DNA from: Fontibacillus panacisegetis
GTDB lineage: Bacteria; Bacillota; Bacilli; Paenibacillales; Paenibacillaceae
Direction: 5' to 3'
Assembly (NCBI RefSeq): GCF_900102215.1
Contig: NZ_FNBG01000013.1
Coordinates: 62,001 to 126,000 of the forward strand
Length of the DNA: 64,000 bases
This document shows, piece after piece, positions 34,905 to 57,616 of the stretch. A program made the translations under genes and the position numbers. Position 1 is the stretch's first letter; each line of letters begins with the position of its first letter. The notes beneath the pieces are model-generated. The model had not been told where the DNA came from and ran no database searches. It saw nothing but the letters and a program-made list of their open reading frames with translations.

Positions 34905-36410
34905 TTAGCATACAACCTTATTTTTACCAGCTTCCTTTGCCCTGTAAAGAGCCCTGTCAGCAATATCAACCAGATCGAAGGCAATTGATGACTGCATCTC
35001 TTCGGTAGAAGCTACGCCCAGACTAATGGTTAAGCGCCCTGCGGGTTGTTTCTCTCCACAGGGAAACGAAGTATTTTCTACATTCATACGAATACGCTCA
35101 GCGACTTGCACAGCAGCCTCCTTGCTTGTAGAAGGAAGAAGCACCACAAACTCTTCGCCACCAAAACGAAAAGCCAAATCCTGATTATCTATTGAGCTTT
35201 TAATAACATCAGCCAACTGAATCAGCACCTGATTACCTAGCAAATGGCCATTCGTATCGTTAAAATGCTTAAAATAATCGATATCGATCAAAATCGTGGA
35301 TAGCGGAGACTGTTTTCTATGTGTCCAATGCTGCTCCAATACTGTCTGAAATGCTCTTTGATTGAACAGAGCTGTTAGCCCATCCTTCAAAGCCATATCT
35401 TCAATCTTACTATATAAACGTGTATGTTGAATGGCGATAGCGGCTTGGTTAGCAAGTGGAATAACACTTTCTATAGCAGTAGCAGTAATAGGCTTCTTAT
35501 TTACTGGATTATCGACTATTAGAATCCCAACCTTCGTTCCTTGGCTAATCAGGGGGAAAACTGCCAATTCGCTCATATTGAACTGTTGGGCAAATAACTG
35601 TAGGGCCCTGTCATTTTCGTCGATTCCTTTAATATGTAACGGAGTTTCACTTTCCAAGGTTCTATACAAAAAGTTGGGCTCATCGAGCGGAATCTCCAGC
35701 CGCATCACTCGTTCATTAAGCAACAAGTCGATGGATTTTTCACTTTCCTTATTCTCAATGAGATCCATCAGATTATATTTACTCTTTGTAATCCGATTCC
35801 ACGTTTTGTAGCCTTCTTCAGCGGTCATTGGACCTGTGCCCATTATTCCGCTTAGCTTAGAACCGTTCTCATCAATTAACAGAATGATCGCTCTATTAAA
35901 ACCGAGGCCATATCCTGCGGTTACAGAGGTCAAAATCGTTTTCAGCAATTTCTGCAAATTCAGCGTCTGCTGCATCGAGAAGCTAACTTCTTTAAAAACA
36001 TTCAATTGCTTAGAGTTTTCAGTAAGCTTGCTCAGCCAATGATCACTTTCTATCTGAGTATTGGATACTAAACTAGCTAACAAATGTACCAATCCAGCAA
36101 ACGACAGATAGCTAAACAATACCGTTAAATCGCTTTCACCAATCTGTACAAATAAAATCAGCCCAGAGACAGCCGCGCTAACCAATCCCCCCAGAATATG
36201 AAAACATATTACCGATACACCAATAAAAACGGCCAATATCCATTTAGTATTCAAAAAGTCAAACAATAATCCTTCAATCTCTACCAAGACAAGACTAGAA
36301 ACAACTAAAAAACACTTGTTGAATGTAGTCCTTCCTTTAAACCGAAAATAGTTGGTAATGATTACTAGAATGATGGTGTATATCACTAATTGAATATATT
36401 GTATAATCAC
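34905..36410 (-). CDS. Diguanylate cyclase with N-terminal TM and GAF domains
   Basis: About 501 residues: six N-terminal TM helices (1-130), a GAF domain (about 150-330) and a C-terminal GGDEF domain with DIDYFKHFND metal ligands and active-site FRFGGEEF. It should make cyclic di-GMP. The inhibitory RxxD site is absent (DNQD in its place). GTG 36410 is preferred to TTG 36416 because the GGGAG spacing is better. No EAL or HD-GYP partner is in the window. Confidence 0.85.
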   Translation of the reverse strand: MIIQYIQLVIYTIILVIITNYFRFKGRTTFNKCFLVVSSLVLVEIEGLLFDFLNTKWILAVFIGVSVICFHILGGLVSAAVSGLILFVQIGESDLTVLFSYLSFAGLVHLLASLVSNTQIESDHWLSKLTENSKQLNVFKEVSFSMQQTLNLQKLLKTILTSVTAGYGLGFNRAIILLIDENGSKLSGIMGTGPMTAEEGYKTWNRITKSKYNLMDLIENKESEKSIDLLLNERVMRLEIPLDEPNFLYRTLESETPLHIKGIDENDRALQLFAQQFNMSELAVFPLISQGTKVGILIVDNPVNKKPITATAIESVIPLANQAAIAIQHTRLYSKIEDMALKDGLTALFNQRAFQTVLEQHWTHRKQSPLSTILIDIDYFKHFNDTNGHLLGNQVLIQLADVIKSSIDNQDLAFRFGGEEFVVLLPSTSKEAAVQVAERIRMNVENTSFPCGEKQPAGRLTISLGVASTEEMQSSIAFDLVDIADRALYRAKEAGKNKVVC

Positions 36411-36568
36411 CAGCAAACACTCCCAATCCCGTGATGACTAGATATAATGACCTAAATCTATTGTATCATCATTATTTTACATTGAAGAGTATTTTTCAAC
36501 TGAATGTAAATAACAATCCATGAAATTTTCGTTCTGCTTTCATAAAGAACGGTATGCGGACACTATTA

Positions 36569-38458
36569 CTATACTGAACTTTCAACCGCATAATCGACTT
36601 CGCTCTGTGCGCACACTTGATTTCTTCCTAACGCTTTAGCCTTATACAAATGATTATCCGCTAATTTGATCAGCTTCGTGTACTCTTTATCTTCCTTTAA
36701 ATACACTGTAGCAACACCAACACTGACAGTTATAACATCTGCAACCTTTGAATTTTCATGTGAAATTCGCAGCTGCTTGACTAAATCACATACTTTTTCA
36801 GCAATATCTTTAGCCTGCTCAGCACTATATCCTGGTAAAACCACTGCAAACTCCTCTCCTCCATAACGGGCAACCAGACCGTCTGATGGGGGAAAGCTTG
36901 TTTTAATAGCATTCACAACAGCTTGCAGACAACGATCTCCCTGAATATGTCCATAACTGTCATTGTACCGCTTGAAATAGTCTATATCGATTAGCAATAA
37001 CGAGATTGGAGATTGATCCTCAATGGCTAACATCAAATGATTTCCCAAGTACTCATCAAAATGCCTGCGATTCGCTGCTCCTGTTAATCCATCTGCCATA
37101 GACCATTCCTGCAGCTGGCGATTGAGCTCTATTAACTGTTTGCGTGACTCTTCGATCACCAAGGTCCGCTCATGTACCTTCCAATCCAGGCCCTCGTTCA
37201 ATTCAGTTAGTTCATTGGCGAGCTGCTCGGTCGTATTAAATGCCTTGGACAACTTCTTCGATAGAACAAAAGAGAAGCAGATGATAAACAGTACGATACC
37301 TATCGAATATATGCTACGCTCTGAATATCTGAAAATATATTTAAGTAAATCAAATGCCACTACCGTTTCGAAGATCAAAAAGCCTACGAGCGCATACATG
37401 GCCCCATCCTCTCGATGCAGCGCCGCACGAATAAACACAATCAGCGCGTAGAGCAAACCGACCAACATAAAGATTTGATAAAAAATCAGGAATCGAATAT
37501 ACACTTCTGCCTGAAAAATCAAAGTTACAATCACATAAATTCCAGCGATAGCCAAGGCTGCTTTAGTGAATTTTTTCGAAGCCTGCTTGGGAAACAGATG
37601 CAGCGTAAACAATGCCAAAAGCACAAACTCCATATATAAGGAAATGTACTCCATCCTCATGGCAAGTGCCCAAGGGAAATGAGGAAAATACTTCGTAATG
37701 AGCACTTCATCAATCAATAAATTCCTCAAAGCATCATTGAGACAGAACAACCCAAAGTACAGCATGGAGAGATCTTTTTTACGGAACATACTAATACCCA
37801 GATGGTAAATACCCGACAGGGCCAGAACACCAATTAAAAGGCCTCTTTCTGCCAAATGGTGATCATGCTTCATGGATACAGCTGAGGCTGCGCCATAAAC
37901 GAGAGGGTCCCACATTCCGCCCCGTAGATCATGATAATTTGAAATTTGCAATACAAGCTGAACCTGATTTGTGTTTGACGAGAAATATATGATCTGCGTT
38001 ATTTTTTGTGGAACACTACTGGTTGAATCCGTTCCTACTACTCCACTAGCAGCTTCAAGCTGACCATTAATCCACAGCTTGTAATTCGAATATATTTTCG
38101 GAATAGATAGAGCCTTGACCCTATTTACTTCGGAAATTTGCATATTCAATACAAAGGTTGCGTATCCCTTTCCAGGGAGCTCTTCTCCATTTAATTTATA
38201 CTTTTCCCAGTTACTTGGCATATCAATATAACCCGATAGCTCACCGCGTCCTGCTTCAATATCCGCTGGCTCTAGCAACTGGTTCCAATAGAATGACCAT
38301 TCCCCATTCAATTCAGCAAGCTTATGTTGCCCCCCCTGAATGCCAGTAACGTCTATAACTCCAGCTACCGCTTCAGGGTGATACGAGGAATTTGTACTCT
38401 GTACCATACATCCGGAAAGCACAAAAAGAAGGAACACAATCAACAAATGATGTCTCAT
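36569..38458 (-). CDS. 7TMR-DISM diguanylate cyclase with lipobox
   Basis: 629 residues. A signal with lipobox LSGC (Cys17) leads to an extracellular jelly-roll DISM domain (LNGEWSFYWNQLLEP, MPSNW, GYATFVL; about 40-190), seven TM helices (about 205-400), a coiled coil and a GGDEF domain (IDIDYFKRYND, ARYGGEEF). The sensor domain resembles carbohydrate-binding folds. The inhibitory site is missing. ATG 38458 follows GGGAGGAGG. It is transcribed alone, divergent from the sfp-like gene. Confidence 0.87.
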   Translation of the reverse strand: MRHHLLIVFLLFVLSGCMVQSTNSSYHPEAVAGVIDVTGIQGGQHKLAELNGEWSFYWNQLLEPADIEAGRGELSGYIDMPSNWEKYKLNGEELPGKGYATFVLNMQISEVNRVKALSIPKIYSNYKLWINGQLEAASGVVGTDSTSSVPQKITQIIYFSSNTNQVQLVLQISNYHDLRGGMWDPLVYGAASAVSMKHDHHLAERGLLIGVLALSGIYHLGISMFRKKDLSMLYFGLFCLNDALRNLLIDEVLITKYFPHFPWALAMRMEYISLYMEFVLLALFTLHLFPKQASKKFTKAALAIAGIYVIVTLIFQAEVYIRFLIFYQIFMLVGLLYALIVFIRAALHREDGAMYALVGFLIFETVVAFDLLKYIFRYSERSIYSIGIVLFIICFSFVLSKKLSKAFNTTEQLANELTELNEGLDWKVHERTLVIEESRKQLIELNRQLQEWSMADGLTGAANRRHFDEYLGNHLMLAIEDQSPISLLLIDIDYFKRYNDSYGHIQGDRCLQAVVNAIKTSFPPSDGLVARYGGEEFAVVLPGYSAEQAKDIAEKVCDLVKQLRISHENSKVADVITVSVGVATVYLKEDKEYTKLIKLADNHLYKAKALGRNQVCAQSEVDYAVESSV

Positions 38459-38538
38459 GCACAACCTCCTCCCGTCGCAAATGCCATTCTAGCAATTTCA
38501 TAATATAAGTCGATTGTATCATTTTCTTGAGCAAAAGA

Positions 38539-38567
38539 TTTACAAGTATAGAACAGGTCACTATAAT
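38539..38567 (+). promoter_or_regulatory. Sigma-A promoter of the phosphopantetheinyl transferase gene
   Basis: TTTACA (38539-38544), a 17-nt spacer and TATAAT (38562-38567), 31 bp before the GTG start. Near-consensus and well placed. Confidence 0.75.
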
Positions 38568-38598
38568 ACGAGTTGATTATATCCGAAGGAGGAATATA

Positions 38599-39300
38599 GT
38601 GGATACCCGAGTCTTTGGATTACAGCTGCCGGAGGATATGGCCTCCTCACCCTTACTACAGCTTATTACGGCTCTTCCTGTAGAGAAGCAGCGCCGAATT
38701 AAAAGGTTCGTACACGTAGAGGATGCTGTACGAACTTTAAGTGCAGATATTCTATCAAGACTGCTTTTATGTGATCAGCTAGGAATTAAAAATAGCGAGC
38801 TCTTCTTCACCAGTAACCAGAATGGCAAACCCCTTCTGCAAGGTCTCGATGACCTGCACTTTAACAACTCCCACTCAGGGAGATGGGTACTATCTGCCAT
38901 TTCCGACTACCCTGTCGGCATAGATGTTGAGAGAATTCGCGAGCTTGATCTTGACTTAGCCAGACATTGCTTCTCAGAGAAGGAGTATCATGACTTAAAT
39001 GATCTTCCCGACGATCAGACAAAGCTGGATTACTTCTATGACTTATGGACGCTTAAGGAAAGCTACATCAAAGCGGTGGGCCTTGGCCTGTCCATGCCAC
39101 TATCCTCATTTACCATTCGAAAAACCAAGGATATGATTCAGCTTCAGACATCTAATACATTCAATCACTGCTTTTTCAAACAATATACTATCGATAATAA
39201 TTATAAAATATCACTTTGTGCACAGCGTGAGCATATTGATGAGAATCTCGTATTAATCAGCGAAGATGAACTGCACCAACGCTTTGTAAAATATCTATAA
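38599..39300 (+). CDS. 4'-phosphopantetheinyl transferase, Sfp type
   Basis: 233 residues. The magnesium/CoA motifs are VGIDVERIR and LWTLKESYIKAVGLGL (the KExxxK helix), with NNSHSGRWVLSAIS before them. It transfers phosphopantetheine from CoA to the Ser of carrier-protein domains. GTG 38599 follows AAGGAGG; the longer upstream frame lacks a site. The A-T and C-A-T proteins 2 kb downstream are the evident clients, and fatty-acid ACP may be another. Confidence 0.92.
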   Translation: MDTRVFGLQLPEDMASSPLLQLITALPVEKQRRIKRFVHVEDAVRTLSADILSRLLLCDQLGIKNSELFFTSNQNGKPLLQGLDDLHFNNSHSGRWVLSAISDYPVGIDVERIRELDLDLARHCFSEKEYHDLNDLPDDQTKLDYFYDLWTLKESYIKAVGLGLSMPLSSFTIRKTKDMIQLQTSNTFNHCFFKQYTIDNNYKISLCAQREHIDENLVLISEDELHQRFVKYL

Positions 39301-41404: not shown

Positions 41405-41451
41405 CGGCGACCTGTCACCGGTATAATACCGGCGGCAGATCGCCGTTTTTT
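41405..41451. terminator. Bidirectional terminator between DUF1304 and NRPS genes
   Basis: CGGCGA...TCGCCG (41405-41410/41440-41445) encloses CCGGTAT/ATACCGG (41418-41424/41426-41432). T6 follows on plus and a U-rich tract on minus. Confidence 0.85.
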
Positions 41452-41476: not shown

Positions 41477-44400
41477 CTAAACTTCAACGCCGCTTCCGCC
41501 TGAAACGGTGGCAGGCTGCTTTGGGTTCAGCTGGTTATCCAGTCTCTCCTGCAAGGCGTCTCGATCCTCAATAATAGCATCTGGAATCGCATCCTCAAGA
41601 TCATCCTCCATGTACCTAAGAGGCTTGAAGTTGAATCCGATCGTCGCCCAGATCATCACCAGAATACCAACACATACAATCAGAAAACCGATTCCCCGCC
41701 CTGGGCCGACTCCAATGATTGGGCCAAAAGTATCGGCAAGCATTCCGCCTTCGTTCATTGCTTTACCGAACACGTTATCTGCCAGTAGCCCCGCTATTAA
41801 ATAACCTAATGGCATACTAGACATGGCAATCATTTGGTTCGTTGCCAGCACCCGTCCCTGAAGCTCCAAGCCAACTTTAGACTGGATCAGGGATTGCCAA
41901 TGTGTATTTACGAGGGTTACCGAGAACCATACACCGAAAATACCTATTGCCGTAATCAGTACACTTGGCCTAAACCCGGATATGATCATAAAAAAGCCTT
42001 CCAATATGACGAATCCTACCATCCCTGACGCCATACGTTTTGTACCGCCCCAAATACTCATCAGCAGGCCGCCCGTCATCGCACCAATAGCTCCAAGTGT
42101 AGTTACTGTAGCCAAATCCTGCGGTGTTGCAAAAGATAACACCAAAGGCTGAATAAGTACGGTAGATAAACCAAATAATACATTTCCGACAAAGAAAAAT
42201 GCAATCATATACAGCATACCCGGTCTGCGAATAATGAATTTCCATCCCATGAGCACTTCCTTGACGAAGGTCTCCTCCCTGCGATGGAACAGCATGTTCG
42301 GAAATCTCACTAACGCAAGCGTAACAATTGCTATAAGGAAGCTTGCAAAATCAAGAATAAAGATGTTAGTCATACCGATCATCGAATACAAGGCTACCCC
42401 GATCAGTGGAGATATCATCTCACTAGTCGATGTGGCAAGCTGCACAATCCCGTTGGCATGTCCAAGATATTGCTTCGGAATAATTTGCGCGATTGCCGCA
42501 ATAAAGGCAGGTCTATGAAAGGAACGCGCAACAGAGCCGACTGCAGATGTAACGTAAATATGCCACACTTCAAGCGTCCCTGTAGCCATCAATATCGCAA
42601 GAACAGCTATAGGCAGTGCCATCATAATATCGCTGAACAGCATAACCAGCCGTCTGTCGTATCGGTCCACGATAGCACCAGCTATTGGGAGAACAAGTAT
42701 GCCAGGAATTAATGAAGCTGATGAAATGACAGCAAAATCAGCAACTGAACCCGTCTGGGCGAACACCCATACTCCAATGGCTATTCCTGTTAAGCCCGAG
42801 CCCAAAATGGACATCAATTGACCTAATATTACGGTAAAGAACATACTCAAATTAGGAACACCCGTTTTTTTCGGAGGCGTTTGTGGTGTATTTCTTGCAT
42901 TTTCAATGAATGCTTCATTCCCCGGCTCAACTAAATCGCTAATCCACTGACTGAGTTGATCCGCCTGATGCTTAATAAAATAATGACCCGACTGAGGAAT
43001 GACGACCAGATCGACCTGTTCACTAAAATAACTCCATTCCTTATACCGTTCTTCATAAAGCTCGGTAGCCCTGTCCTTTTCGCCAATTATACAAGTAACA
43101 GGACAGCTAAGCTTCGGAAACTCCTTATTATTATAAGCAGCCGTGTAGTAGTCCTCGCTCTCACGCGCATCATGCCTCAGACAACGAATCATGAAGTCCC
43201 GTTCAACCTGATCCTCCACCTCTGTAAACCCGCCAAGCGCCTTCAGGAAGGCGTGGTATGATTTGTTGGACATGCTGCGATCTGACGGGAAAAGCTTTGA
43301 ATAGAGATCGAAGAATCTCCCCGGAATTCGCGCTATCGGGAACGTACCTCCGAGAAATACTCTTAACAGAGGATAATTCTCCTCATTAAGCTGTCTTGCA
43401 ATCTCCATCGTTAATGCTCCGCCTACACAATGTCCATACAATGCCACAGGCCCCTTGACAGTCTGTTTGATTTCTTCGACACAGAGACGAGCGACCTCCT
43501 CGATCGGAAGAAGTTCCTCCTCCTTGCGACTGTAATCATGTCCCGGAAGATCCATGGCGTACAGATCAATCTGGGCTGGCATTTGCGCAGCAAGCGGCTG
43601 ATACGTAATTGCACTGCCTCCTGCATACGGCACGCAGACGAGCGATACCTGGACTCCCTGAACCGTAGAATGTCTCGTTAATTTATGGAGGAAATGACGC
43701 TCTGACTGCTGTCCTTGGTCGATATATTCCGCTAAAGAGCGAATCGTTGGATTTTTAAAGAAATCCATAATACTAATCCAATCTCCCAGCCTTCTAACTA
43801 CCTTGAGCGCTTTAAATGATTCTCCACCCAATTCAAAGAAGCTATCATCAATCCCGATGGCCTCGGTTCCGAGAATATCCTTCCACACCTCCCAAATCCT
43901 CTGTTCGGTTGCCGTTTGCGGCTTGGCTGCATTAGGATCTGACACACTGACCGCAAGCTCCATAGAAGCAAGCAGGTTCACATCTACTTTACCATTGGGA
44001 TTCAGAGGAAGAGACTCCATGGGAACGATATGAGAAGGTATCATGTATTCCGGCAGCTTCTCTTTCATTCTCTTCTTAAGTTCAGCAAGATGTTGATCCC
44101 CATCTATAGTGGAATCAAAGACGACATAAGATGCTATTCTTTTATCAGAACCGCTTACTTCTTTCAGCAATACAACTGCATCCGTCACAAAAGGAAAAGA
44201 GGTAATAACAGATTCTATCTCACCCAGCTCGATTCGGAAGCCACGAATTTTGATCTGCCGATCCATCCGGCCCAAAATGTCCACAGCTCCATCCGGCATA
44301 TAGCGAACACGGTCTCCTGTTCTGTACAGTCTCGCTTCTGGCTCCATACGATCCGCAAATGGATTTGGCAGAAAACGTGATAGCGTCATTTCTTCATTGC

Positions 44401-46990
44401 CGAAATATCCTCTTGCTACTCCAGCACCGCCAATATATAATTCGCCGGGTATACCCACTGGTACAGGATGGCTGCGAGAATCAACCACGTATCGCTTCAC
44501 ATTGCCAAACGGGTGACCAATCGGCACGATGTTAAAGCGTGGTTCCTCCATATCTTCGGGAACCCTGTAGGCAAAGGCGGACACCGTTGTTTCCGTCGGA
44601 CCGTAGTGATTCTGAATGTCGATATGAGGGCGAAGCTCTCTTATCTTGCGTACCGTCTCCCAGCTCAGGGCCTCTCCTGCAAGGATAAGCACCTTGTGAG
44701 GAATTACATTCTCCGGCTCGGCAGCCTCCATCATCACCTCAAAATGACTTGGCACTACCTTCATGATATCGATTCGATTCGCTTTAAAATACTCTGCTAC
44801 CCCATCCGGATCACAGGAAAGATCATATGATAATACATGCAGTGTTCCACCAGTACACAACGCTCCAAATACATTGGTTGTCCCCAAGTCAGCTGCCAAT
44901 GTTGAAGCCATAGCAAAGGTTAACGGTGTCTCAATATTCAAATGTCGGATCAAGCCTTGAATGTAATTGGCAAATTGCCTGTGCTCTACGGAGACTCCTT
45001 TTGGCACACCTGTTGTACCTGATGTGAACACAATATACATCAAATCGTCAGGTGTAGTCTGGAACACAGGATTACTAGCATCTAATAACTCCAGGGATGA
45101 CTGCAGCCCTTTATGATCCAGCTCCAGCTTGGTTACCCCTTCAGGCTGAACATCACCCGACAGCTTTGCTTGAGTCAGAAGCACCTTCATTCCTGATTGC
45201 TGTATCATATATTCCAGACGCTCCTTCGGATATGAAGGATCAAGCGGTACATAAGCTCCCCCTGATTTCAGCACAGCCAGCATAGCAATGACGAACTGTG
45301 CCGACCGTTCCAGAAAAATACCAACAGCCTGATCCGGGCCAATCCCACGGGAACGAAGATCATGTGCCAGACGATTGGCGCTTTCATTCATTTCCTGATA
45401 CGTACAGGAGGTCCCTTCGTACATAAGAGCAATGGCATCCGGCTGTTGTGCAGCAAACCACTCTATCCGTTTCACTACAGCAAACTCGGGATCATATTCG
45501 ATGTCATTTTGATTCCAATCCACAAGAAGCTGCTGCTTCTCTGTATCAGTTAACAGATCAATATCAGCAATTGAACAATCCGACTCAGTGCATGCCCTTC
45601 TCATTAATGTGCAATAATGCTCCAGCAGTCTCTCTATCGTAGCTTCATGAAATAAATCCGTGCTGTACTCCGCCTGCACATTGTATGCATTGGCTGATAG
45701 AGTCAAATCAAATTTAGAGCTGTTCGTATTCGTCGTACCACCAAAATGTAGTGGAAACTCTTCTTCATCCCCCCAGCCCACATGCATGTTCTGTACAACA
45801 AACATCACTTGGAAAAGTGGAGTATGGCTTAGATCACGTTCAATTGGCAGCAATTTGATCAACTGGTCCAGAGGAAAATCCTGATGCTCCTGCGCTTCAA
45901 GGGAAATTTGCTTAATTTGTTGGACTGTTTCCCTGAACGTAGAATTTTCATTCAATTGAATCCGGATCGGAAGCGTATTAACAAAAAAACCGACATTCCC
46001 TTCAATCTCTTCACGACTGCGATTCGCTACTGGAGAACCAATAATGATGTCATCTTGTCCCGTATACCGATAGAGTAAAACGGCATACGCTGCGAGGGAC
46101 ATCATGTAGAAGGTAACATCCTCTTCTCTGCACCATGACTCCAGATGTTGATAGAATTGTTCCGGAAACGGCTTGATTACAGTTGATCCGTTCGAAGTCT
46201 TAACAGGTGGCCTTGGTTTGTCTGCAGACAGCTCCAGTACTGGAAGCTCACCTTGGAATTTGCCGAGCCAATAATTCTGGTGATAGTCCAGAACTTCCCC
46301 CGACAAATACTCCCGCTGCCACGATGCAAAATCCGCATATTGAACATCCAGCGGCGTCAGAGACGGTTTCTCGTCATGGCTCAATGCCACATATGCCTGC
46401 TGAATTTCCTTCATTATGATGCCTAGGGACCAACCGTCACACGCGATATGGTGAATGTTAAGCAGCATGAAATGCTCTTGAGGATTCAACGTAATCAAAT
46501 AGGATTTTATAGGCCATTCACTTTCAAGTCTGAATGGAATAACCGATTTCTCTTTGATGATCTCATCCTTACGGGTATATCTTTCTCCCTCTGATAAATG
46601 AGAGAGATCGTGATGTTCCAAAAAAACAGGAGTGAAAGAGTGGATGACCTGAACCGTATCCTCTTGCACCATTTTATAAGTTGTACGCAGCACCTCATGC
46701 CGCTCAATAAGTATGTTGATGGCCTGCTGCATCAACTCCACATTCAATTGCACAGGGATTCTGAACACGCAAGCGACGTTATAAGCAGGGCTATCCGGCT
46801 CCCACTGATGCATAAACCATTGGCGCTCCTGAGAAAAAGACACTGGGAATTGCTGCAAGCCCTCCTGTCTCGGCATGGGAACGATGGATTTCTTCCTCTG
46901 CTGGCGAGAGTTTTTCTCCTTAATCTTATTAAGCAGCTGCTGACGCTTTTCTGGAGGAAGTGAATTGATTCTTTCTAATAATTCACTCAA
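41477..46990 (-). CDS. Nonribosomal peptide synthetase C-A-T-TE fused to MFS exporter
   Basis: 1837 residues. Linker helix 3-25 (LLERINSLPPEKRQQLL). C domain ~48-480 with active HHIACDG (180-186). A domain ~490-1010, all core motifs present (FTSGTTGVPKG, YGPTETT, YRTGD, Lys1001); pocket D701, L702, T705, K744, I769, A771, H795, V803, S804 looks Asp/Asn-like. T domain with phosphopantetheine Ser1058 (LGGES). TE ~1112-1352 with GHCVG: Cys1188 replaces the usual Ser, plus Asp1306 and His1336. MFS ~1380-1790, about 12 TM helices of the EntS-like class, then a charged tail. TTG 46990 lies 4 nt after the glycosyltransferase stop with GGTGAGG inside that gene, so the two are coupled. It should condense, release and export the product. 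No epimerase or second C domain. Confidence 0.92.
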   Translation of the reverse strand: MSELLERINSLPPEKRQQLLNKIKEKNSRQQRKKSIVPMPRQEGLQQFPVSFSQERQWFMHQWEPDSPAYNVACVFRIPVQLNVELMQQAINILIERHEVLRTTYKMVQEDTVQVIHSFTPVFLEHHDLSHLSEGERYTRKDEIIKEKSVIPFRLESEWPIKSYLITLNPQEHFMLLNIHHIACDGWSLGIIMKEIQQAYVALSHDEKPSLTPLDVQYADFASWQREYLSGEVLDYHQNYWLGKFQGELPVLELSADKPRPPVKTSNGSTVIKPFPEQFYQHLESWCREEDVTFYMMSLAAYAVLLYRYTGQDDIIIGSPVANRSREEIEGNVGFFVNTLPIRIQLNENSTFRETVQQIKQISLEAQEHQDFPLDQLIKLLPIERDLSHTPLFQVMFVVQNMHVGWGDEEEFPLHFGGTTNTNSSKFDLTLSANAYNVQAEYSTDLFHEATIERLLEHYCTLMRRACTESDCSIADIDLLTDTEKQQLLVDWNQNDIEYDPEFAVVKRIEWFAAQQPDAIALMYEGTSCTYQEMNESANRLAHDLRSRGIGPDQAVGIFLERSAQFVIAMLAVLKSGGAYVPLDPSYPKERLEYMIQQSGMKVLLTQAKLSGDVQPEGVTKLELDHKGLQSSLELLDASNPVFQTTPDDLMYIVFTSGTTGVPKGVSVEHRQFANYIQGLIRHLNIETPLTFAMASTLAADLGTTNVFGALCTGGTLHVLSYDLSCDPDGVAEYFKANRIDIMKVVPSHFEVMMEAAEPENVIPHKVLILAGEALSWETVRKIRELRPHIDIQNHYGPTETTVSAFAYRVPEDMEEPRFNIVPIGHPFGNVKRYVVDSRSHPVPVGIPGELYIGGAGVARGYFGNEEMTLSRFLPNPFADRMEPEARLYRTGDRVRYMPDGAVDILGRMDRQIKIRGFRIELGEIESVITSFPFVTDAVVLLKEVSGSDKRIASYVVFDSTIDGDQHLAELKKRMKEKLPEYMIPSHIVPMESLPLNPNGKVDVNLLASMELAVSVSDPNAAKPQTATEQRIWEVWKDILGTEAIGIDDSFFELGGESFKALKVVRRLGDWISIMDFFKNPTIRSLAEYIDQGQQSERHFLHKLTRHSTVQGVQVSLVCVPYAGGSAITYQPLAAQMPAQIDLYAMDLPGHDYSRKEEELLPIEEVARLCVEEIKQTVKGPVALYGHCVGGALTMEIARQLNEENYPLLRVFLGGTFPIARIPGRFFDLYSKLFPSDRSMSNKSYHAFLKALGGFTEVEDQVERDFMIRCLRHDARESEDYYTAAYNNKEFPKLSCPVTCIIGEKDRATELYEERYKEWSYFSEQVDLVVIPQSGHYFIKHQADQLSQWISDLVEPGNEAFIENARNTPQTPPKKTGVPNLSMFFTVILGQLMSILGSGLTGIAIGVWVFAQTGSVADFAVISSASLIPGILVLPIAGAIVDRYDRRLVMLFSDIMMALPIAVLAILMATGTLEVWHIYVTSAVGSVARSFHRPAFIAAIAQIIPKQYLGHANGIVQLATSTSEMISPLIGVALYSMIGMTNIFILDFASFLIAIVTLALVRFPNMLFHRREETFVKEVLMGWKFIIRRPGMLYMIAFFFVGNVLFGLSTVLIQPLVLSFATPQDLATVTTLGAIGAMTGGLLMSIWGGTKRMASGMVGFVILEGFFMIISGFRPSVLITAIGIFGVWFSVTLVNTHWQSLIQSKVGLELQGRVLATNQMIAMSSMPLGYLIAGLLADNVFGKAMNEGGMLADTFGPIIGVGPGRGIGFLIVCVGILVMIWATIGFNFKPLRYMEDDLEDAIPDAIIEDRDALQERLDNQLNPKQPATVSGGSGVEV

Positions 46991-46994
46991 ATCC

Positions 46995-48311
46995 TCACCT
47001 TCTTTCCTGAAGCGTAGCTAACAATTTTTCCCGTTTCTCTGGAGGCAGCTTACTTATGCGTTCCAACAGATCTTGCTTGCCAAGCCCCTCCTTGCTCTGC
47101 CGCTCGGGAGCATCTCCATCGGACAAAATGCTAGTTGTATGATCAATTACACGCTGGAAGTAGCTTTCAAATGCCTTGATTCCAAGCCCTGCATTAAATT
47201 CTGCTGCCTTAATGTATGAATCTTCAGACAGGGTATCGTAGTGCTCCTGATCAGAAGTCAGTTTATTCAAAACCTCAATCCACGGATCTAAATTTTGCTC
47301 TGGAATGACCGCAACCGGAACCTTGGTTGCGAGCACATCCTCCTTGATATATTCTCTAATCGGATTAACCGGCACAATATAATCAAGATATAACTTTGCC
47401 TCAGGAAGCCCGCCTACATGGCTTGCAACAACCGGGATACCGCGAAGCATAGCTTCAACAACTACCTGACCAAATGACTCTCCCCATAGGGAAGGCATGA
47501 GGAACACTTTCGTCTGCTTGTAAATATCATTAATGTTCTCAGCAGGCTTTAAAATCGTTACATTCGGCAGAGATTGCATCTCTTCGATTTCCTCAGATCT
47601 TGTTGCCCACGTAGGAACAGCCGCAAATTGAAGGTGCGGCATCTTCCGCGCTAATCCAATAAAGATGGAAAACCCTTTGATCGCTGAAGGATTAATTACT
47701 GTAATAAAGGGATTATCGAAGTTCGCCAGGTTCGGGAATGGACCTTGACCATAAGAAGGGAAATATATGACTTCAGAGTCCATATCTGCATAAAGATCGA
47801 AGTATTTTTTTAAATAGTCACTCACCGAAACGATGCCATGCAATTTTTTGTAAAGTTCAATCTTTGGAATATCCTCTTGAAAACATTCCGGACCAAATGG
47901 CAGCGTAGCTTGGCTATGAGCCAGATAGATTGTTCTCGCACCCGTCTCCAGCACCGTCTCCAGCAGAAGATGTGTGTTATCCTCGGACACGATCACAACA
48001 TCTGGCTTAAACTCATCAATTACCTTTTTGATAAATGGAAACACCTGAAATTTGCCCTTTACGGTATAGGCCAGGACGCCCTTCTTACGTATGATAAACA
48101 ACTCATCAGGTATATTCTCCACTACTTCGAACTCATGAGTCCCTTTTTTTGACTCCAGATATTCGTCAAATCCTTCGATATCCAGCGAGGGAGTAACAAC
48201 CTGGCACTCATGCCCAAGATCAACAAGCCCCTCCATCAGAATGCGGTTCGCTTTATGCGCTCCACCCCAAGGGTATAAATATTCCATTGATTGGACCAGT
48301 AATATTTTCAC
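46995..48311 (-). CDS. GT4 glycosyltransferase with NRPS-like C-terminal linker
   Basis: 438 residues, GT-B fold. N-terminal acceptor domain begins MKILLVQSMEYLYPWGGAHKA. The donor domain (about 200-395) has INPSAIKGFSIFIGLARKMP, SLWGESFGQVVVEAMLRG and PVVASHVGGLPE, the GT4 E-x7-E nucleotide-sugar motif. The last ~27 residues (LLERISKLPPEKREKLLATL) copy the linker that opens the next protein's C domain. The gene lies between the A-T and C-A-T-TE-MFS genes (17-nt and 4-nt gaps), so it probably glycosylates the peptide, perhaps while docked on the assembly line. Sugar and acceptor unknown. Confidence 0.87.
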   Translation of the reverse strand: MKILLVQSMEYLYPWGGAHKANRILMEGLVDLGHECQVVTPSLDIEGFDEYLESKKGTHEFEVVENIPDELFIIRKKGVLAYTVKGKFQVFPFIKKVIDEFKPDVVIVSEDNTHLLLETVLETGARTIYLAHSQATLPFGPECFQEDIPKIELYKKLHGIVSVSDYLKKYFDLYADMDSEVIYFPSYGQGPFPNLANFDNPFITVINPSAIKGFSIFIGLARKMPHLQFAAVPTWATRSEEIEEMQSLPNVTILKPAENINDIYKQTKVFLMPSLWGESFGQVVVEAMLRGIPVVASHVGGLPEAKLYLDYIVPVNPIREYIKEDVLATKVPVAVIPEQNLDPWIEVLNKLTSDQEHYDTLSEDSYIKAAEFNAGLGIKAFESYFQRVIDHTTSILSDGDAPERQSKEGLGKQDLLERISKLPPEKREKLLATLQERR

Positions 48312-48328: not shown

Positions 48329-50155
48329 TTATTCGTTCTCCAGTTCAGCAAGCAGCCGTTCTAATTCCGTGGAATCCATCTGATCTAGCTGATATTGCTC
48401 CAATGTGACCGCAGTCTGTTCAATCGTTGGCTTAGAGGCGAATATAACGTGCAGCGGCACATCCATACCCAGAACGCCACGAATTCTGGAGACGATTTGG
48501 GTTGCCATCAGCGATTGCCCACCCAGCTCAAAGAAGTTATCGTGAACGCCCACCTTATCGAGTCTCAGCACCTCACACCAGATAGCCGTTAGCTCCTTCT
48601 CCAAATAAGTGCTCGGAGCGATATATTCATCGGCGATTTCCGGTCTTACGTCATCCATAGGCGGAAGGTTATTTCGATCAATTTTGCCACTGGTCAGCAG
48701 TGAGAACTCGTCCACAAATTTATAGCGTGTCGGAACCATATATAGAGGAAATTTTAAAAGCAAATATTCACGAATTTCACTAATATTAAGTTTTGATTGT
48801 GGATCTTTCTTGATATAAGCACCAATCGTATTTTTCTCATAATTGTAAGTAACAACAGCTTCCTGAATCGACGCATGCTCACGCAGAGCATATTCCAGTT
48901 CACCAAGCTCAATACGAATACCCGATACTTTCACTTGATTGTCATCTCTGCCCACCCACTCTATTACACCTTCAGTCACTTGTATGCAAAGATCTCCGGT
49001 ACGGTACAATCGGTCGCTAATTCCATCATTAAACGGATTGCTCACAAAATGTTTAGCCGTCAGCTCTTCTGCATTCAAATATCCCCGAGCCAGACCTACA
49101 CTTGAGATATAGAGCTCTCCTGTTTCGCCATTAGCCACCGGCTGTAAATGCTGGTTAAGAAGGTACACTGCCGTGTCACTGATTGGAGTTCCTAATGAAA
49201 TCACATCCTCGGCAGCATCACAACGATGAATAGTGGCACAGACTGTTGTCTCCGTCGGTCCATACGCATTCAAGAAATTAAGCTTAGGAGCCCAATATTG
49301 GATTAATTTCTTGGTACATGCTTCACCAGCGGTTACCAAAGTTTTCAAATGAGGCAACTCAATGCCTGGAAGCCCACTAAGTACTGAGGGAACCAGCGTC
49401 ACAACCGATATTTTCTTTTCTTTCAAAATATATAGCAGCTCTTCTCCAACGTAGAGGTTATCCTGAGGTAGCAGTACCAGCGTTGCTCCTGCTGCCAATG
49501 TCGTAAAAATTTCCGAGATAGAGGCATCAAAAGAAACGGACGCATATTGGAGAACACGATCACTATGATTTAATAGAAACTTGTTAATTTGCTCATGAAC
49601 CAGAATTGGGATTCCTCGATGCTCAATCATAACCCCCTTAGGCTTACCGGTAGAGCCGGAGGTATATATCATGTAGGCCAGATCGGACGGTTCATTGCGA
49701 CTAGTCAGATTCTCTGTCGATGATTCAGTCACAATTTGCGTCCATTCCTCATCAAGCTGAACTATTTTTGAAGAAGAAGTGATATTGTGACCTACAATCG
49801 TTGACACTCTCTCTGCATGTACGGAATTCGTGAGGATCATATTGAAATTGGCTTCACCTACAATATAGGCAATCCGATCATCCGGGTAGGTTGTTGAGAT
49901 TGGGACATAGGCAGCTCCTGACTTCAGCACAGCTAAAATGGATACAATCATTTCGGAGGATCTCTCAAGAAATACACCAATAAACGTCTCTGGCGCCGCA
50001 CCCTGCTGCTGCAAATAATGCGCTAACTGATTGGCTTTCTCGTTGACTTCGTTATAAGTGAGTGATGATTCCCCAAACTCAATGCAAGGTGCATTTGGAC
50101 TACACTCAACCTGATCTTGAAATAATTCGTAGACAGTTCTAAAATTAGCGTTCAT
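48329..50155 (-). CDS. NRPS loading protein, adenylation-thiolation didomain
   Basis: 608 residues. A domain ~8-510 with YTSGSTGKPKG, FDASISEIF, NAYGPTETT, YRTGDL, GRDDNQVKVSGIRIELGE and the catalytic Lys in TSGKIDRNNL. T domain ~520-590, Ser548 in LGGQS. The C-terminal tail DSTELERLLAELENE looks like a docking helix. Pocket D210-A211-S214-T253-V274-A276-A297-V305-C306-Lys reads DASTVAAVCK, which I recall as a listed tyrosine code. No C domain precedes it, so it should load the first residue. ATG 50155 follows GGGGAGGAAC. First gene of the three-gene operon. Confidence 0.92.
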   Translation of the reverse strand: MNANFRTVYELFQDQVECSPNAPCIEFGESSLTYNEVNEKANQLAHYLQQQGAAPETFIGVFLERSSEMIVSILAVLKSGAAYVPISTTYPDDRIAYIVGEANFNMILTNSVHAERVSTIVGHNITSSSKIVQLDEEWTQIVTESSTENLTSRNEPSDLAYMIYTSGSTGKPKGVMIEHRGIPILVHEQINKFLLNHSDRVLQYASVSFDASISEIFTTLAAGATLVLLPQDNLYVGEELLYILKEKKISVVTLVPSVLSGLPGIELPHLKTLVTAGEACTKKLIQYWAPKLNFLNAYGPTETTVCATIHRCDAAEDVISLGTPISDTAVYLLNQHLQPVANGETGELYISSVGLARGYLNAEELTAKHFVSNPFNDGISDRLYRTGDLCIQVTEGVIEWVGRDDNQVKVSGIRIELGELEYALREHASIQEAVVTYNYEKNTIGAYIKKDPQSKLNISEIREYLLLKFPLYMVPTRYKFVDEFSLLTSGKIDRNNLPPMDDVRPEIADEYIAPSTYLEKELTAIWCEVLRLDKVGVHDNFFELGGQSLMATQIVSRIRGVLGMDVPLHVIFASKPTIEQTAVTLEQYQLDQMDSTELERLLAELENE

Positions 50156-50227
50156 GACGTTCCTCCCCAAGATACTTATTCTTAAAAACGGTATAAAGGC
50201 ATATAACTACTGGTTTGTCCTATTTCG

Positions 50228-50337: not shown

Positions 50338-51039
50338 CTATTGAACTAGCTTTCCGTTAAACTTGTATCCAGAGCCCCTCACTGTATGAATATAAAGGGG
50401 GTGATGAGGATTTTTCTCGATCTTTTGTCTGAGGGAATAAATATGTACCATAACCGTTCGAAGATCGCCGAGCTTGGTTTCGCTCCAAATTAGGTTATAC
50501 AGGGTTTCTGTGTGAAATACTCGATTGGGATTTTTGGCAAGAAGCGCCAGGAGCTGAAATTCTTTGGCAGAAAGAACCGCCTCATGTCCATGAATCATGA
50601 CAGTTCTGGCATTCAAGTCTACCTCCAGACCGGGGAAAAGCAGCACATTGCGACGGTTCACTGCAAACGCTCCAGTGTATCTGCGAATTTGCGCCTTTAT
50701 TTGAGTAATAAGAAGCTCATTATGGACAGGAATGTTAATAAAGCCGTCTCCACCAGCATTAAGTCCAAAAATTTTCATGTTGTCATCATTGTAATGATCC
50801 ATGAACAAAACGGGTTTATCACTAATTCGGCGGATTTCAGCACATACATCAGACGAAGCAGATGACGGCATCGGTATATCCAGAATAATAAGATCCGGAT
50901 AATGAGTTCGGATCAGGACAACGGCGCTCTGGCTCTGAACCGGGCAGCTATAAACGTCGAATCCTCGATCTAATAGCAACTGAACTAGAAAAATGCGTAA
51001 ACCTTCATTATCGCTAACGATAATTATCTTCTCCCGCAT
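50338..51039 (-). CDS. Orphan OmpR-type regulator with degenerate receiver
   Basis: 233 residues. The phospho-acceptor Asp54 (LIILDIPMP) is kept, but the first acidic residue is Ser9 (VSDN), the Thr/Ser switch is Asp81 (LFMDH) and the invariant Lys is Ile103 (FINIP). Normal phosphorylation signalling is therefore doubtful. The winged-helix domain (LSAKEFQLLALLAKNPNRVF to VRGSGYKFNGK) is intact. No kinase gene is adjacent. It precedes the NRPS operon on the same strand with a ~180-bp gap and shares an AAACGTTA motif with it, so it is a likely cluster regulator. Confidence 0.85.
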   Translation of the reverse strand: MREKIIIVSDNEGLRIFLVQLLLDRGFDVYSCPVQSQSAVVLIRTHYPDLIILDIPMPSSASSDVCAEIRRISDKPVLFMDHYNDDNMKIFGLNAGGDGFINIPVHNELLITQIKAQIRRYTGAFAVNRRNVLLFPGLEVDLNARTVMIHGHEAVLSAKEFQLLALLAKNPNRVFHTETLYNLIWSETKLGDLRTVMVHIYSLRQKIEKNPHHPLYIHTVRGSGYKFNGKLVQ

Positions 51040-51108: not shown

Positions 51109-51300
51109 TCGATGTATTTTAATGAAAAAAATAGAAAAATAGTTCTTTAGAACCAAATTAGGGAGGATCAACCTTGTGGTGATCGTTCTACTACAAGCCT
51201 ACATTTAAATACCGAAACATCATGAAATGCATCAAAATGTACAAAATCAGCCCGTTTTTTGTTACAATGATTGAAAATCACATGCGTAAAGGGGATCATT

Positions 51301-52689
51301 ATGGAATACATTAGCACTCGAGGGAAAGTAGGAGGCATTGGCTTTGTAGACGCCGTCCTGATGGGGCTGGCAGACGACGGGGGGCTGCTCGTTCCAAAGC
51401 AAATTCCACAAGTGTCGGCAGATACACTGTCACTGTGGCAGAAGCTCTCTTATTCAGAGCTCGCACTTGAAGTGTTCTCACTATATATTGATGGGGAAAT
51501 TCCTCGCGGGGAATTAAAGAAGCTCGTTAATGACAGCTATGCAACGTTCCGTGACGAAGAGGTAACTCCGGTTCGCCGTTTGAATGACAAGCTGCATGTA
51601 CTTGAGCTGTTCCATGGACCAACGTTCGCCTTTAAAGATATCGCCCTGCAATTTCTGGGTAACCTGTACTCCTACATTTCTCGGGAAAGAAATTCGATCA
51701 TTCATATTCTGGGCGCTACATCCGGTGATACCGGCGCTTCAGCTATTGAAGGAGTACGCGGCAAAGAAGGAATTCGGATCTGCATTCTGCACCCCCACGG
51801 CAAAGTAAGTAAAGTGCAAGAGCTGCAGATGACGACCGTCGACGACGCTAACGTGCTGAACCTGTCTGTTGAAGGAAACTTTGACGATTGCCAACGGATC
51901 ATTAAAGAATTGTTTGCTGATGTAGAATTCAAGCATCGCTATCATTTGCGGGCTATCAATTCTATCAACATCGCTCGTATTCTTGCGCAAACCGTCTATT
52001 ACTTCTATGCATACTTCCAGCTTGTAAACCAGGGAATTAGCGGCAAAGTAAATTTCAGTGTTCCAACAGGGAATTTTGGTGATATCTTTGCAGGTTATTT
52101 GGCTAAAAAAATGGGCCTTCCGATCAACAAGCTAATCCTTGCTACTAACGAAAACAACATTCTGGAACGCTTCATCAATGAAGGCGTGTATCAACCAGGC
52201 GAATTCCATATGACGTATAGTCCTTCAATGGACATTCAGGTTGCCAGCAACTTTGAGCGTTATCTGTACTATCTGCATGGTGAGGATGCCAACACTGTAA
52301 CCACGTTCATGGACAGCTTCAAGCAGGACGGCAAGATCGTGATCGCTGCAGATAAGCTAGAACAAGTAAAACGTGATTTCGTTGCTTATGGCGTGGAGAA
52401 CGATGAATGCCTCGCTACCATCGGACAAAGTCATGATGAATATGGATACTTGCTTGATCCGCATACTGCTTGTGGTGTTGCAGCAGCCGAGAAACTCACC
52501 GACAAAGGTGAAGTTACGGTCGCTCTTTCTACTGCCCATCCGGCCAAGTTCAACGAAGCGATCGAGCTCATTCAAATTGAGCAGACATTCCCGCCGCAAA
52601 TTCAGGCCTTGTTTGACAAGCCTCAGCATCAGATCCTTGTTGATGGATCAAATAATGCGGTGAAAGAGCAATTGCTGAAATTTTTCTAA
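51301..52689 (+). CDS. thrC: Threonine synthase
   Basis: 462 residues, PLP fold II. YISTRGKVGGIGF start, ELFHGPTFAFKDIALQFLGN with the PLP Lys, LGATSGDTGASAIEGVRG, SVPTGNFGD phosphate loop and AVALSTAHPAKF-type ending (VALSTAHPAKFNEA). The length and motifs match the long (E. coli/yeast) class. It converts O-phosphohomoserine to threonine. ATG 51301 follows AAAGGGGATC; the ORF extension to 51271 is unsupported. No hom or thrB neighbour. Confidence 0.94.
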   Translation: MEYISTRGKVGGIGFVDAVLMGLADDGGLLVPKQIPQVSADTLSLWQKLSYSELALEVFSLYIDGEIPRGELKKLVNDSYATFRDEEVTPVRRLNDKLHVLELFHGPTFAFKDIALQFLGNLYSYISRERNSIIHILGATSGDTGASAIEGVRGKEGIRICILHPHGKVSKVQELQMTTVDDANVLNLSVEGNFDDCQRIIKELFADVEFKHRYHLRAINSINIARILAQTVYYFYAYFQLVNQGISGKVNFSVPTGNFGDIFAGYLAKKMGLPINKLILATNENNILERFINEGVYQPGEFHMTYSPSMDIQVASNFERYLYYLHGEDANTVTTFMDSFKQDGKIVIAADKLEQVKRDFVAYGVENDECLATIGQSHDEYGYLLDPHTACGVAAAEKLTDKGEVTVALSTAHPAKFNEAIELIQIEQTFPPQIQALFDKPQHQILVDGSNNAVKEQLLKFF

Positions 52690-56629: not shown

Positions 56630-57598
56630 ATGAAAAAATGGCTACTCCCCTTCGCATTAATTCTTGCACTGATGGTCAGTGCTTGCAGTAATTCAGCCAG
56701 CTCCACAAACACTTCTGGTAATAGCAATGCAAATGCAAGCAAGGAAAATGTAACGGGACCAGCTGCTACTGAATCTGAGGCGTCTGGTACAATCACTTAT
56801 CAATCCGAGAGTGGACCTATTGAAGTTCCTGCTAATCCTCAGCGAGTGATCGTGCTCTCTGCATTTGCTGGCAACGTGATGTCACTCGGAGTAAATCTGG
56901 TAGGCGTTGAATCCTGGTCCAAAATGAATCCTCGTTTCGATGCAACCTTAAAGGACGTTGAAGAAGTATCGGATGAAAACTTAGAGAAGATCATCGAGCT
57001 TGATCCGGACCTGATTATCGGATTATCCACGATCAACAATATCGATAAATTAAAGGAAATCGCCCCAACCGTAACTTATACCTACGGCAAAGTAGATTAC
57101 TTAACACAGCACCTTGAAATCGGCAAGCTGCTTAACAAAGAGAAGGAAGCCCAGGCTTGGATCGATGATTTCAAACAACGCGCAGCTTCCGCAGGTGAAG
57201 AAATCAAAGCAAAAATCGGTGCAGATGCTACGGTTTCGGTAATCGAAAACTGGGATAAGCAAATTTACGTGTACGGCGACAACTGGGGACGCGGTACTGA
57301 AATTTTGTACCAGGAAATGAAGCTGGCTATGCCGGAGAAGGTAAAAGAAATGGCGCTAAAAGACGGCTACTATGCATTATCTCTGGAGGTTCTTCCTGAA
57401 TTTGCAGGCGACTATGTGATCTTCAGTAAAAACAATGAGACAGATAACTCCTTCATGGAGACAGATACGTACAAAAACATTCCTGCCGTGAAGAACAATC
57501 AGGTGTTTGAAGCTGATTCAAGGGAATTCTACTTCAATGATCCAATCACACTTGATTTCCAACTCGACTTCTTCAAGAAATCTTTTCTTGGCAACTAA
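56630..57598 (+). CDS. Iron-siderophore ABC transporter substrate-binding lipoprotein
   Basis: 322 residues: lipoprotein signal with MVSACSN lipobox, Ser/Asn-rich linker, then a FeuA/YfiY-type type III binding fold (PQRVIVLSAFAGNVMSLGV, LDPDLIIGLSTINNIDKLK, and the long inter-lobe helix around LTQHLEIGKLLNKEKEAQAWI). It binds a ferric siderophore outside the membrane, and the permeases follow. AAAGGAG precedes ATG 56630. Which siderophore is unknown. No ATPase gene is in the operon, so a shared FhuC/YusV-like ATPase elsewhere must serve it. Confidence 0.9.
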   Translation: MKKWLLPFALILALMVSACSNSASSTNTSGNSNANASKENVTGPAATESEASGTITYQSESGPIEVPANPQRVIVLSAFAGNVMSLGVNLVGVESWSKMNPRFDATLKDVEEVSDENLEKIIELDPDLIIGLSTINNIDKLKEIAPTVTYTYGKVDYLTQHLEIGKLLNKEKEAQAWIDDFKQRAASAGEEIKAKIGADATVSVIENWDKQIYVYGDNWGRGTEILYQEMKLAMPEKVKEMALKDGYYALSLEVLPEFAGDYVIFSKNNETDNSFMETDTYKNIPAVKNNQVFEADSREFYFNDPITLDFQLDFFKKSFLGN

Positions 57599-57616
57599 GG
57601 CAGTAACGGGGCGCAG

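Follow-up and report, generated by a model that had tools for sequence, protein, structure and literature searches.

A stretch of 64,000 nucleotides from the genome of Fontibacillus panacisegetis (assembly GCF_900102215.1, contig NZ_FNBG01000013.1, positions 62,001–126,000; here called the window) carries a gene in which the terminal module of a non-ribosomal peptide synthetase (NRPS) runs on, in one chain, into a transporter of the major facilitator superfamily (MFS). The fused synthetase is the last of three genes in the same direction. The first encodes a stand-alone loading module of one adenylation and one carrier domain (A1-T1), and the second a glycosyltransferase (GT) of the GT4 kind, which lies 4 bp ahead of the NRPS. 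The third encodes condensation (C), adenylation (A), carrier (T), thioesterase (TE) and MFS domains. The A1-T1 frame was listed from a TTG codon at 50170; the ATG at 50155 and its ribosome-binding site were chosen by eye. Coordinates of all features are collected in table 1.

No stop codon occurs anywhere between 41477 and 46990 on the minus strand. This single frame of 1837 codons has the order C-A-T-TE-MFS, as a first-pass annotation of the window had claimed, and every domain of the protein scores above its curated Pfam cut-off. The catalytic motifs HHIACDG, LGGES, GHCVG and SGHYF are all present in the chain; C, A, T and TE thus form an ordered terminal NRPS module with intact motifs. The Pfam Thioesterase match (residues 1117–1219) covers positions 3–105 of a profile of 226, and Abhydrolase_6 covers residues 1124–1346. 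The MFS part is complete, with MFS_1 matching at 105.9 bits (cut-off 33.4) over positions 2–346 of 347. Hydropathy of the window sequence alone gives 10 segments, and the average across 59 homologues gives 14; two of these were set aside (1611–1627, a continuation of the seventh transmembrane helix, and 1744–1760, which is weak), and the 12 that remain were read as transmembrane helices. The pattern of Lys and Arg residues assigns the two termini of the MFS part to the cytosolic face; therefore the TE lies on the same side of the membrane as the inner mouth of the pump. The linker between them, about 37 residues of non-conserved sequence, reads in frame and without stops. No obvious Shine–Dalgarno sequence was seen by eye at candidate starts within residues 1330–1409, and no efficient-looking internal start lies at the TE–MFS joint.

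The fusion is widely distributed. An MFS-only query was run against 394 genomes of the same family, with at most four candidates scored per genome. The 22 closest matches, from 16 genomes, all reach at least 391 bits and lie in frames of 1846–1954 amino acids (aa). The next match falls to 227 bits and 31% identity, and thereafter the frames are of about 400–510 aa, the size of stand-alone MFS proteins; no close split homologue stands among the closest matches in these genomes. A second MFS-only survey covered named genomes and kept the best 80 of 173 confirmed relatives (the named loci), using search patterns built from fused members, which distant split forms could escape. TE and MFS share one frame in all 80, and the C domain is also in frame in 71, the remainder being contig ends, frame breaks or loci without a match. 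The fused loci span about seven phylum-level groups. By record title their hosts include Paenibacillaceae, Clostridia, Lachnospiraceae, Herpetosiphon, Anaerolineae and many actinomycetes, as well as Vibrio, Dyella, Rhodanobacter, Corallococcus, a spirochaete and SAR324. A search of predicted proteins with residues 1105–1800 returned 674 matches at E 0.001, and the 120 listed all have TE and MFS Pfam domains; this survey is biased on its own, because its candidates were limited to similar length. A scan of viral contigs for close relatives found none. The condition under which the first-pass annotation would have been refuted, that homologues always split TE and MFS, is contradicted: splits were found only in more distant cyanobacterial relatives. 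Among the named loci, L035, L037 and L038 (Vibrio penaeicida, Vibrio sp.) encode fused C-A-TE-MFS proteins.

The release domain is set apart by its nucleophile. Cys occupies this column in 121 of 121 proteins, the window included, and by alignment in 78 of the 80 named loci. Each of the remaining two (L056 and L089) has a TE that runs across two frames, with GHCVGG and GHCVGA in the second. In a few fused TEs the motif deviates to SHC or AQC, with the Cys kept. The triad of Cys, Asp (column D287) and His is invariant across 59 aligned sequences. The best PDB match is ObiF1 (E 1.4e-32; runner-up 1.3e-19), and GEKD of the window aligns with GGQD of ObiF1, which by alignment only puts the Asp of the triad at position II, the later of the two. 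ObiF1 forms a β-lactone and has its catalytic Asp in a RifR-like position, according to the available text of PMC6668435, and SulM and ObiF are classed by Asp position with the type II thioesterases in that of PMC11298585. The window TE shares with these obafluorin and sulfazecin enzymes a GxCxG-type nucleophile and, as aligned, the Asp in the RifR-like place. It differs in being followed by an MFS part, which the accessible portions of the two sources do not mention for ObiF and SulM, and in belonging to a family of varying terminal codes; a four-membered ring such as the known enzymes form is a possible product of the window TE. On these comparisons the fused TE is a Cys thioesterase of ObiF type and no ordinary Ser TE. 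A β-lactam product of the SulM kind was rejected: the Gln-Cys-Asn motif of β-lactam-forming SulM, a criterion taken from the part of PMC11298585 available, is absent and the window reads His-Cys-Val.

In a TE tree that left out the frame-broken L056 and L089, 79 fused TEs form one group (support 0.895) with 0 of 11 non-fused sequences inside. The group is nested in a broader assembly of MFS-free Cys TEs, those of Vibrio tasmaniensis, Azospirillum, Streptomyces and Caballeronia (GHCxG in 4 of 4); two of the four join the fused TEs with support of 0.99, the other two with 0.10 and 0.81. Because the fused TEs lie within this broader assembly, the Cys TE predates the fusion, and all fused members examined have retained it. 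Seven other thioesterase-family matches occur in the window genome, of which four could be aligned (three GHSxG, one without the pattern) and three could not. On a plasmid of Streptomyces sp. NBC_01351 (L105), an NRPS whose Cys TE is not fused to an MFS part is encoded next to a kinase, an ATP-grasp protein and an MMPL transporter.

Split relatives bear on the origin of the exporter domain. In an MFS tree rooted on stand-alone MFS proteins of Paenibacillaceae, 81 fused domains form one group (support 0.874) with 0 of 10 non-fused sequences inside. Three cyanobacterial MFS genes join this group with support of 1.0, the nearest non-fused lineage found. They come from plasmid records of Trichormus variabilis and two Nostoc plasmids, where the MFS gene follows 14, 32 and 1 bp behind an NRPS. 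Unlike the fused systems, these are arrangements of two genes, and the TE that closes each NRPS is of the Ser type (GWSMG, GWSMG and GYSFG); TE type thus accompanies fusion, Cys when fused and Ser in the three NRPS-adjacent cases. Fused proteins further carry a conserved acidic tail beyond the last helix (PLRxMEDxLPDAxPDAxI..DKDxxQ). All the stand-alone relatives read, five cyanobacterial and five from Paenibacillaceae, end short of it, and remain short when wider stretches are read. More distant MFS relatives in Nostoc NIES-3756 and Gloeocapsa adjoin a TonB siderophore-type receptor, and the Nostoc relative also stands beside iron ABC transporter genes. An export role for the MFS domain is plausible, since its nearest stand-alone relatives lie directly behind cyanobacterial NRPSs or within cyanobacterial siderophore clusters. 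A PDB search with the MFS domain found no sequence match at E up to 1. The simplest reading is that an exporter, already an NRPS neighbour, was fused once to an NRPS whose thioesterase was of another type. The Trichormus plasmid (L099) and the Nostoc MS1 plasmid (L100), which carry the NRPS cluster and separate MFS gene, are typed as conjugative, and such plasmids are a possible route of spread for the exporter lineage. A same-frame NRPS–MFS link in Nostoc MS1, hinted at by the span of a tblastn match, was ruled out, as the frames differ.

The glycosyltransferase is a recurrent partner. The order A-T, GT4, C-A-T-TE-MFS is kept in 11 of the 80 named loci (7 Paenibacillaceae, 4 Herpetosiphon). 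Seven others, from Paenibacillus species, Clostridia, Lachnospiraceae and Sporanaerobium, have an unrelated GT1/GT28-type enzyme instead; its gene is directly ahead of the NRPS in six of the seven, present in two copies in L026 and L082, and three of the loci also have a polysaccharide deacetylase. In the family survey all 22 fused loci have a GT in the upstream position (13 GT4, 9 unrelated GT1-like); the count was made from coordinates, and the genes themselves were read in five cases, the window, G001, G016, G027 and G371.

The GT4 tail ends in LLERI.LPPEKR..LL, and the NRPS starts with the same helix. For each locus the GT tail was scored without gaps on its own NRPS head and compared with 300 shuffles and 246 control tails, the controls being unverified predicted frames. 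The window score of 76 is reached by 0 of 246 controls and 0 of 300 shuffles. The tail matches the head in 12 of 12 GT4 loci, window included. Its score lies above all 246 controls in 11 of them (in L019 one control is better) and is reached by 0 of 300 shuffles per locus, except for 1 of 300 in L016. Among database GT4 relatives of at least 395 aa (117 of the 120 listed), 98 score above the 99% control score and 53 above every control. In L136, L137 and L139, where the 10 kb read contain no C domain, the GT4 relative ends 26, 25 and 6 residues past the GT domain. In one locus (L135, G297:C37:333000-352000) a single chain of 3030 aa reads GT-helix-C-A-T-C-A-T-C, and two database proteins from short contigs (P0192 and P0217) start with a GT-helix-C joint, the end of P0192 looking out of frame. 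Because the GT occurs in line before C, and split systems hold two copies of the helix, the evidence speaks for a docking element that would place the GT on the NRPS line, and against a relic. A second, stand-alone GT with a helix tail precedes the 3030-aa chain of L135, a separate glyco-NRPS. Two further proteins, P0168 and P0177, show tandem GT4 domains, then the helix, then an apparent thioesterase start, and both ends look out of frame. A profile hidden Markov model of NRPS heads was dropped; its alignment stretched to 3743 columns, and with it GT tails scored below control tails.

Adenylation codes were read by alignment to a GrsA segment. The A1 code of the window is DASTVAAVCK, and DAST[VI]AAVCK holds across the window and 11 GT4 loci; we take it to be aromatic and Tyr-like. 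Linear gramicidin synthase leads the PDB matches of A1, and TycA and GrsA, which activate Phe, are among the best. Compared with the GrsA code for Phe, the main difference lies at position 239; in PheA the exchange W239S reportedly favours Tyr about threefold (PMC11355689). The A2 code, DLTKIAHVSK, recurs unchanged in 32 of 74 other loci for which a code was obtained. By code tables it is presumably Asp- or Asn-like. Terminal codes of other fused members are taken to be Cys-like (in Vibrio), Ser-like (L093, L048), Orn-like (L068), Gly-like and Glu-like; in Vibrio loci L035 and L037, codes presumed Gly-like lie in upstream partner genes. As these terminal codes vary between members, the TE–MFS end would serve many peptides. 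A search of the open-access literature for the specificity codes did not find them. For the window the favoured product would be a glycosylated Tyr–Asx dipeptide or a ring derived from it.

Together these features are consistent with a compact, membrane-bound NRPS line that would glycosylate a short peptide, release it by a Cys TE and export it through the attached pump. As a whole, this model is on balance probable, though by no wide measure. (i) A1-T1 would load an aromatic, Tyr-like amino acid. (ii) GT4 would dock via the C-terminal helix that it has in common with the NRPS and add a sugar, most likely to a carrier-bound acceptor. (iii) C-A2-T2 would append an Asx-like residue. (iv) The ObiF-type Cys TE would take over the chain and release the product. 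(v) The MFS domain of the same polypeptide, on its tether, would pump it out. Docking, the timing of glycosylation on the line, the amino acids, the chemistry of release and export of this product by the attached pump are predictions from sequence. The first-pass annotation had described domains for synthesis, release and export as covalently joined, and this part holds, with the frame conserved; the direct hand-off from TE to pump that it suggested is a hypothesis, and it overlooked the ObiF-type Cys and the operon with its GT.

Several observations weigh against this proposal. In 62 of the 80 named loci neither a GT4 nor a GT1-type GT, the only two families looked for, is found in the fetched stretch, and one of them, L032, has a broken GT4. 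The helix is clear in only three of nine GT1 tails (L078, L088 and L091), its strict pattern fits only 21 of the 120 listed GT relatives, and L138, a GT4 adjoining an NRPS, has no helix tail. The first A codes of GT1-type clusters are non-aromatic (DILQLGVIWK, DVWQFCLVFK, DVSQVGVIYK and DIWELTADDK), and the starter of the GT4 cluster L140 has a carrier without an A domain by Pfam; Tyr would therefore be the sugar acceptor in part of the family at most. The L140 locus (G371:C1:2322000-2336000) consists of a GT4 and C-A-T-TE-MFS pair with a starter protein in a 735-aa frame, in which the carrier domain is the sole Pfam match. The MFS domain stays below the NCBIfam TIGR00900 H+ antiporter cut-off (207.3 versus 319.6 bits). 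Domain-distance correlations do not mark TE–MFS as a unit (0.71 for TE and the MFS domain, 0.69 for C and the MFS domain); computed on the 30 sequences that dereplication left out of 70, they do not clearly point to a freely swapping TE–MFS cassette.

Other explanations of the fusion differ in how well they fit. The MFS part may be a true exporter joined to the NRPS only for equal dosage and membrane placement, the product being released into the cytosol and carried by any copy of the pump, with no channelling; this is a real possibility, held with less than even confidence. The separate MFS genes right behind the cyanobacterial NRPSs show that fusion is not required for such pathways, and a linker of this length that is unconserved also agrees with simple co-placement. 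However, no reversal is seen, with 0 split cases in the 22 closest family matches and 0 in the 80 kept loci, and TE type tracks fusion. It is improbable, in our estimate, that the Cys TE makes a strained or reactive ring (β-lactone, β-lactam, thiolactone or succinimide) which the pump clears at once. Such a ring would account for both the Cys TE and the tight link to the pump, and some terminal codes, as read here, name nucleophilic side chains (Cys-, Ser- and Orn-like); the window A2 code, however, is presumably Asx-like, and other fused systems have codes taken to be Gly-like (DILQFGLVWK, DILQVGVIWK), with which a side-chain ring is impossible. These last argue against a strained ring as a general rule. 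The closest solved relative, ObiF1, is a β-lactone former in the available part of PMC6668435, and the Cys nucleophile and Asp position agree with ObiF and SulM, but Pfam finds neither a sulfotransferase nor a hydroxylase among the three genes of the operon. An error of sequencing or assembly that merged two genes into one frame, as a draft genome of 76 contigs might suggest, is practically ruled out by the same order and similar length in the 22 family loci, the named loci and database proteins of many assemblies.

Returning to the model of a compact membrane-bound line, a bolder version of it is rather unlikely, if somewhat less so than the ring. In it, the fused proteins would form a widespread class of NRPS whose product is never free in the cytosol: the GT would read an NRPS docking code and glycosylate a carrier-bound residue, the Cys TE would hold the thioester or make a reactive ring, and the attached MFS domain would receive the product directly. 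If true, synthesis, tailoring, release, self-protection and export would be united in one physical machine. Direct passage of a product from a natural-product enzyme to its exporter is hard to test with separate proteins. Here a single chain unites synthetase and pump across distant bacterial groups, with a Cys TE in all cases examined, and the question of a hand-off becomes testable. GTs from two unrelated families are found at one and the same place in the operon, and those of the GT4 kind bear the helix with which the NRPS begins, which suggests a means of discovering or engineering peptide glycosylation on the line. At three genes the operon is short enough to be practical for expression.

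Known systems resemble the fusion in part. The automatic NCBI name 'non-ribosomal peptide synthetase/MFS transporter', which database entries bear and the first reading had mentioned, denotes exactly the same architecture and is a name only. EntS is a stand-alone protein. Siderophore exporters of its type have the MFS fold and were likened to the exporter domain through the distant relatives in the cyanobacterial siderophore clusters L147 and L148; the three-gene operon of the window, in contrast, has no siderophore gene. TE followed by MFS in one chain is also predicted in fungi, in Verticillium polyketide synthases (PKSs; PMC9495618) and an Ophiocordyceps hybrid (PMC11057048). These are PKS or hybrid predictions, likened by description, and the available text of the two sources gives no mechanism. 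The trans-acting chain translocase LgnA has a TEII-like fold that works between carrier domains, but is a separate protein with a Ser77 nucleophile (PMC8748450, in the text available). Open-access literature searches aimed at an NRPS–MFS fusion, or a Cys TE with an MFS, found no characterised member, in line with the earlier statement that no characterised product or mechanism was known, and a search for glycosylation on an NRPS found no characterised case. The architecture is thus already known as an automatic name, and no study of the product of the fused machine was found in that literature.

Table 1. Features of the fused synthetase gene, its operon and its surroundings (window coordinates).
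Feature	Position	Strand	Basis and remarks
C-A2-T2-TE-MFS synthetase/exporter fusion	41477..46990	minus	1837 aa, TTG start; open reading frame (ORF) list, Pfam, motif reading
N-terminal NRPS helix SELLERINSLPPEKRQQLLNKIKEK, twin of GT tail	46910..46987	minus	tail–head comparison
Condensation domain	45524..46852	minus	Pfam, residues 47–489; HHIACDG at residue 180
Adenylation domain A2	43988..45463	minus	Pfam AMP-binding 510–863 and AMP-binding_C 924–1001; code DLTKIAHVSK
Carrier domain T2	43721..43900	minus	Pfam PP-binding 1031–1090; motif LGGES
Thioesterase, ObiF type	42953..43642	minus	Pfam and alignments; triad Cys1188-Asp1306-His1336, GHCVGG
TE–MFS linker	42842..42952	minus	residues 1347–1383, in frame, stop-free
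MFS exporter domain	41642..42841	minus	Pfam MFS_1 1388–1729; about 12 transmembrane helices by hydropathy
Cytosolic tail PLRYMEDDLEDAIPDAIIEDRDALQ	41480..41641	minus	conserved where fused; missing or truncated in all 10 unfused relatives read
A1-T1 stand-alone loading module	48329..50155	minus	about 608 aa from ATG at 50155; acidic tail ELERLLAELENE; Pfam AMP-binding, PP-binding
GT4 glycosyltransferase	46995..48311	minus	438 aa; Pfam Glyco_trans_1_4, Glycos_transf_1 and Glyco_transf_4 above cut-off
C-terminal GT helix QDLLERISKLPPEKREKLLATLQERR, proposed NRPS docking element	46998..47075	minus	ungapped score 76 against NRPS head
Terminator-like stem downstream of operon	41405..41420	minus	consensus match only; 11 such sites against 8.0 expected in region
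4'-Phosphopantetheinyl transferase	38527..39300	plus	profile match; probable carrier activator
OmpR-type response regulator	50338..51039	minus	Pfam; upstream of operon
Iron-siderophore-type uptake genes (Peripla_BP_2, two FecCD permeases)	56630–59631	plus	about 6 kb upstream of operon
Three GGDEF diguanylate cyclase genes around operon	34905–38464 and 61293–62816		Pfam
Threonine synthase adjoining operon	51271–52689	plus	probably primary metabolism

Some neighbouring genes may bear on the operon. The phosphopantetheinyl transferase family is also present inside the fetched stretch in 15 of the 80 named loci. Regulation of the operon by the OmpR-type gene is possible; a relative of this response regulator lies upstream in L016–L018, and none was found in the stretches of L015 and L019–L025. 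A link between the siderophore-type uptake genes and the product is likewise possible.

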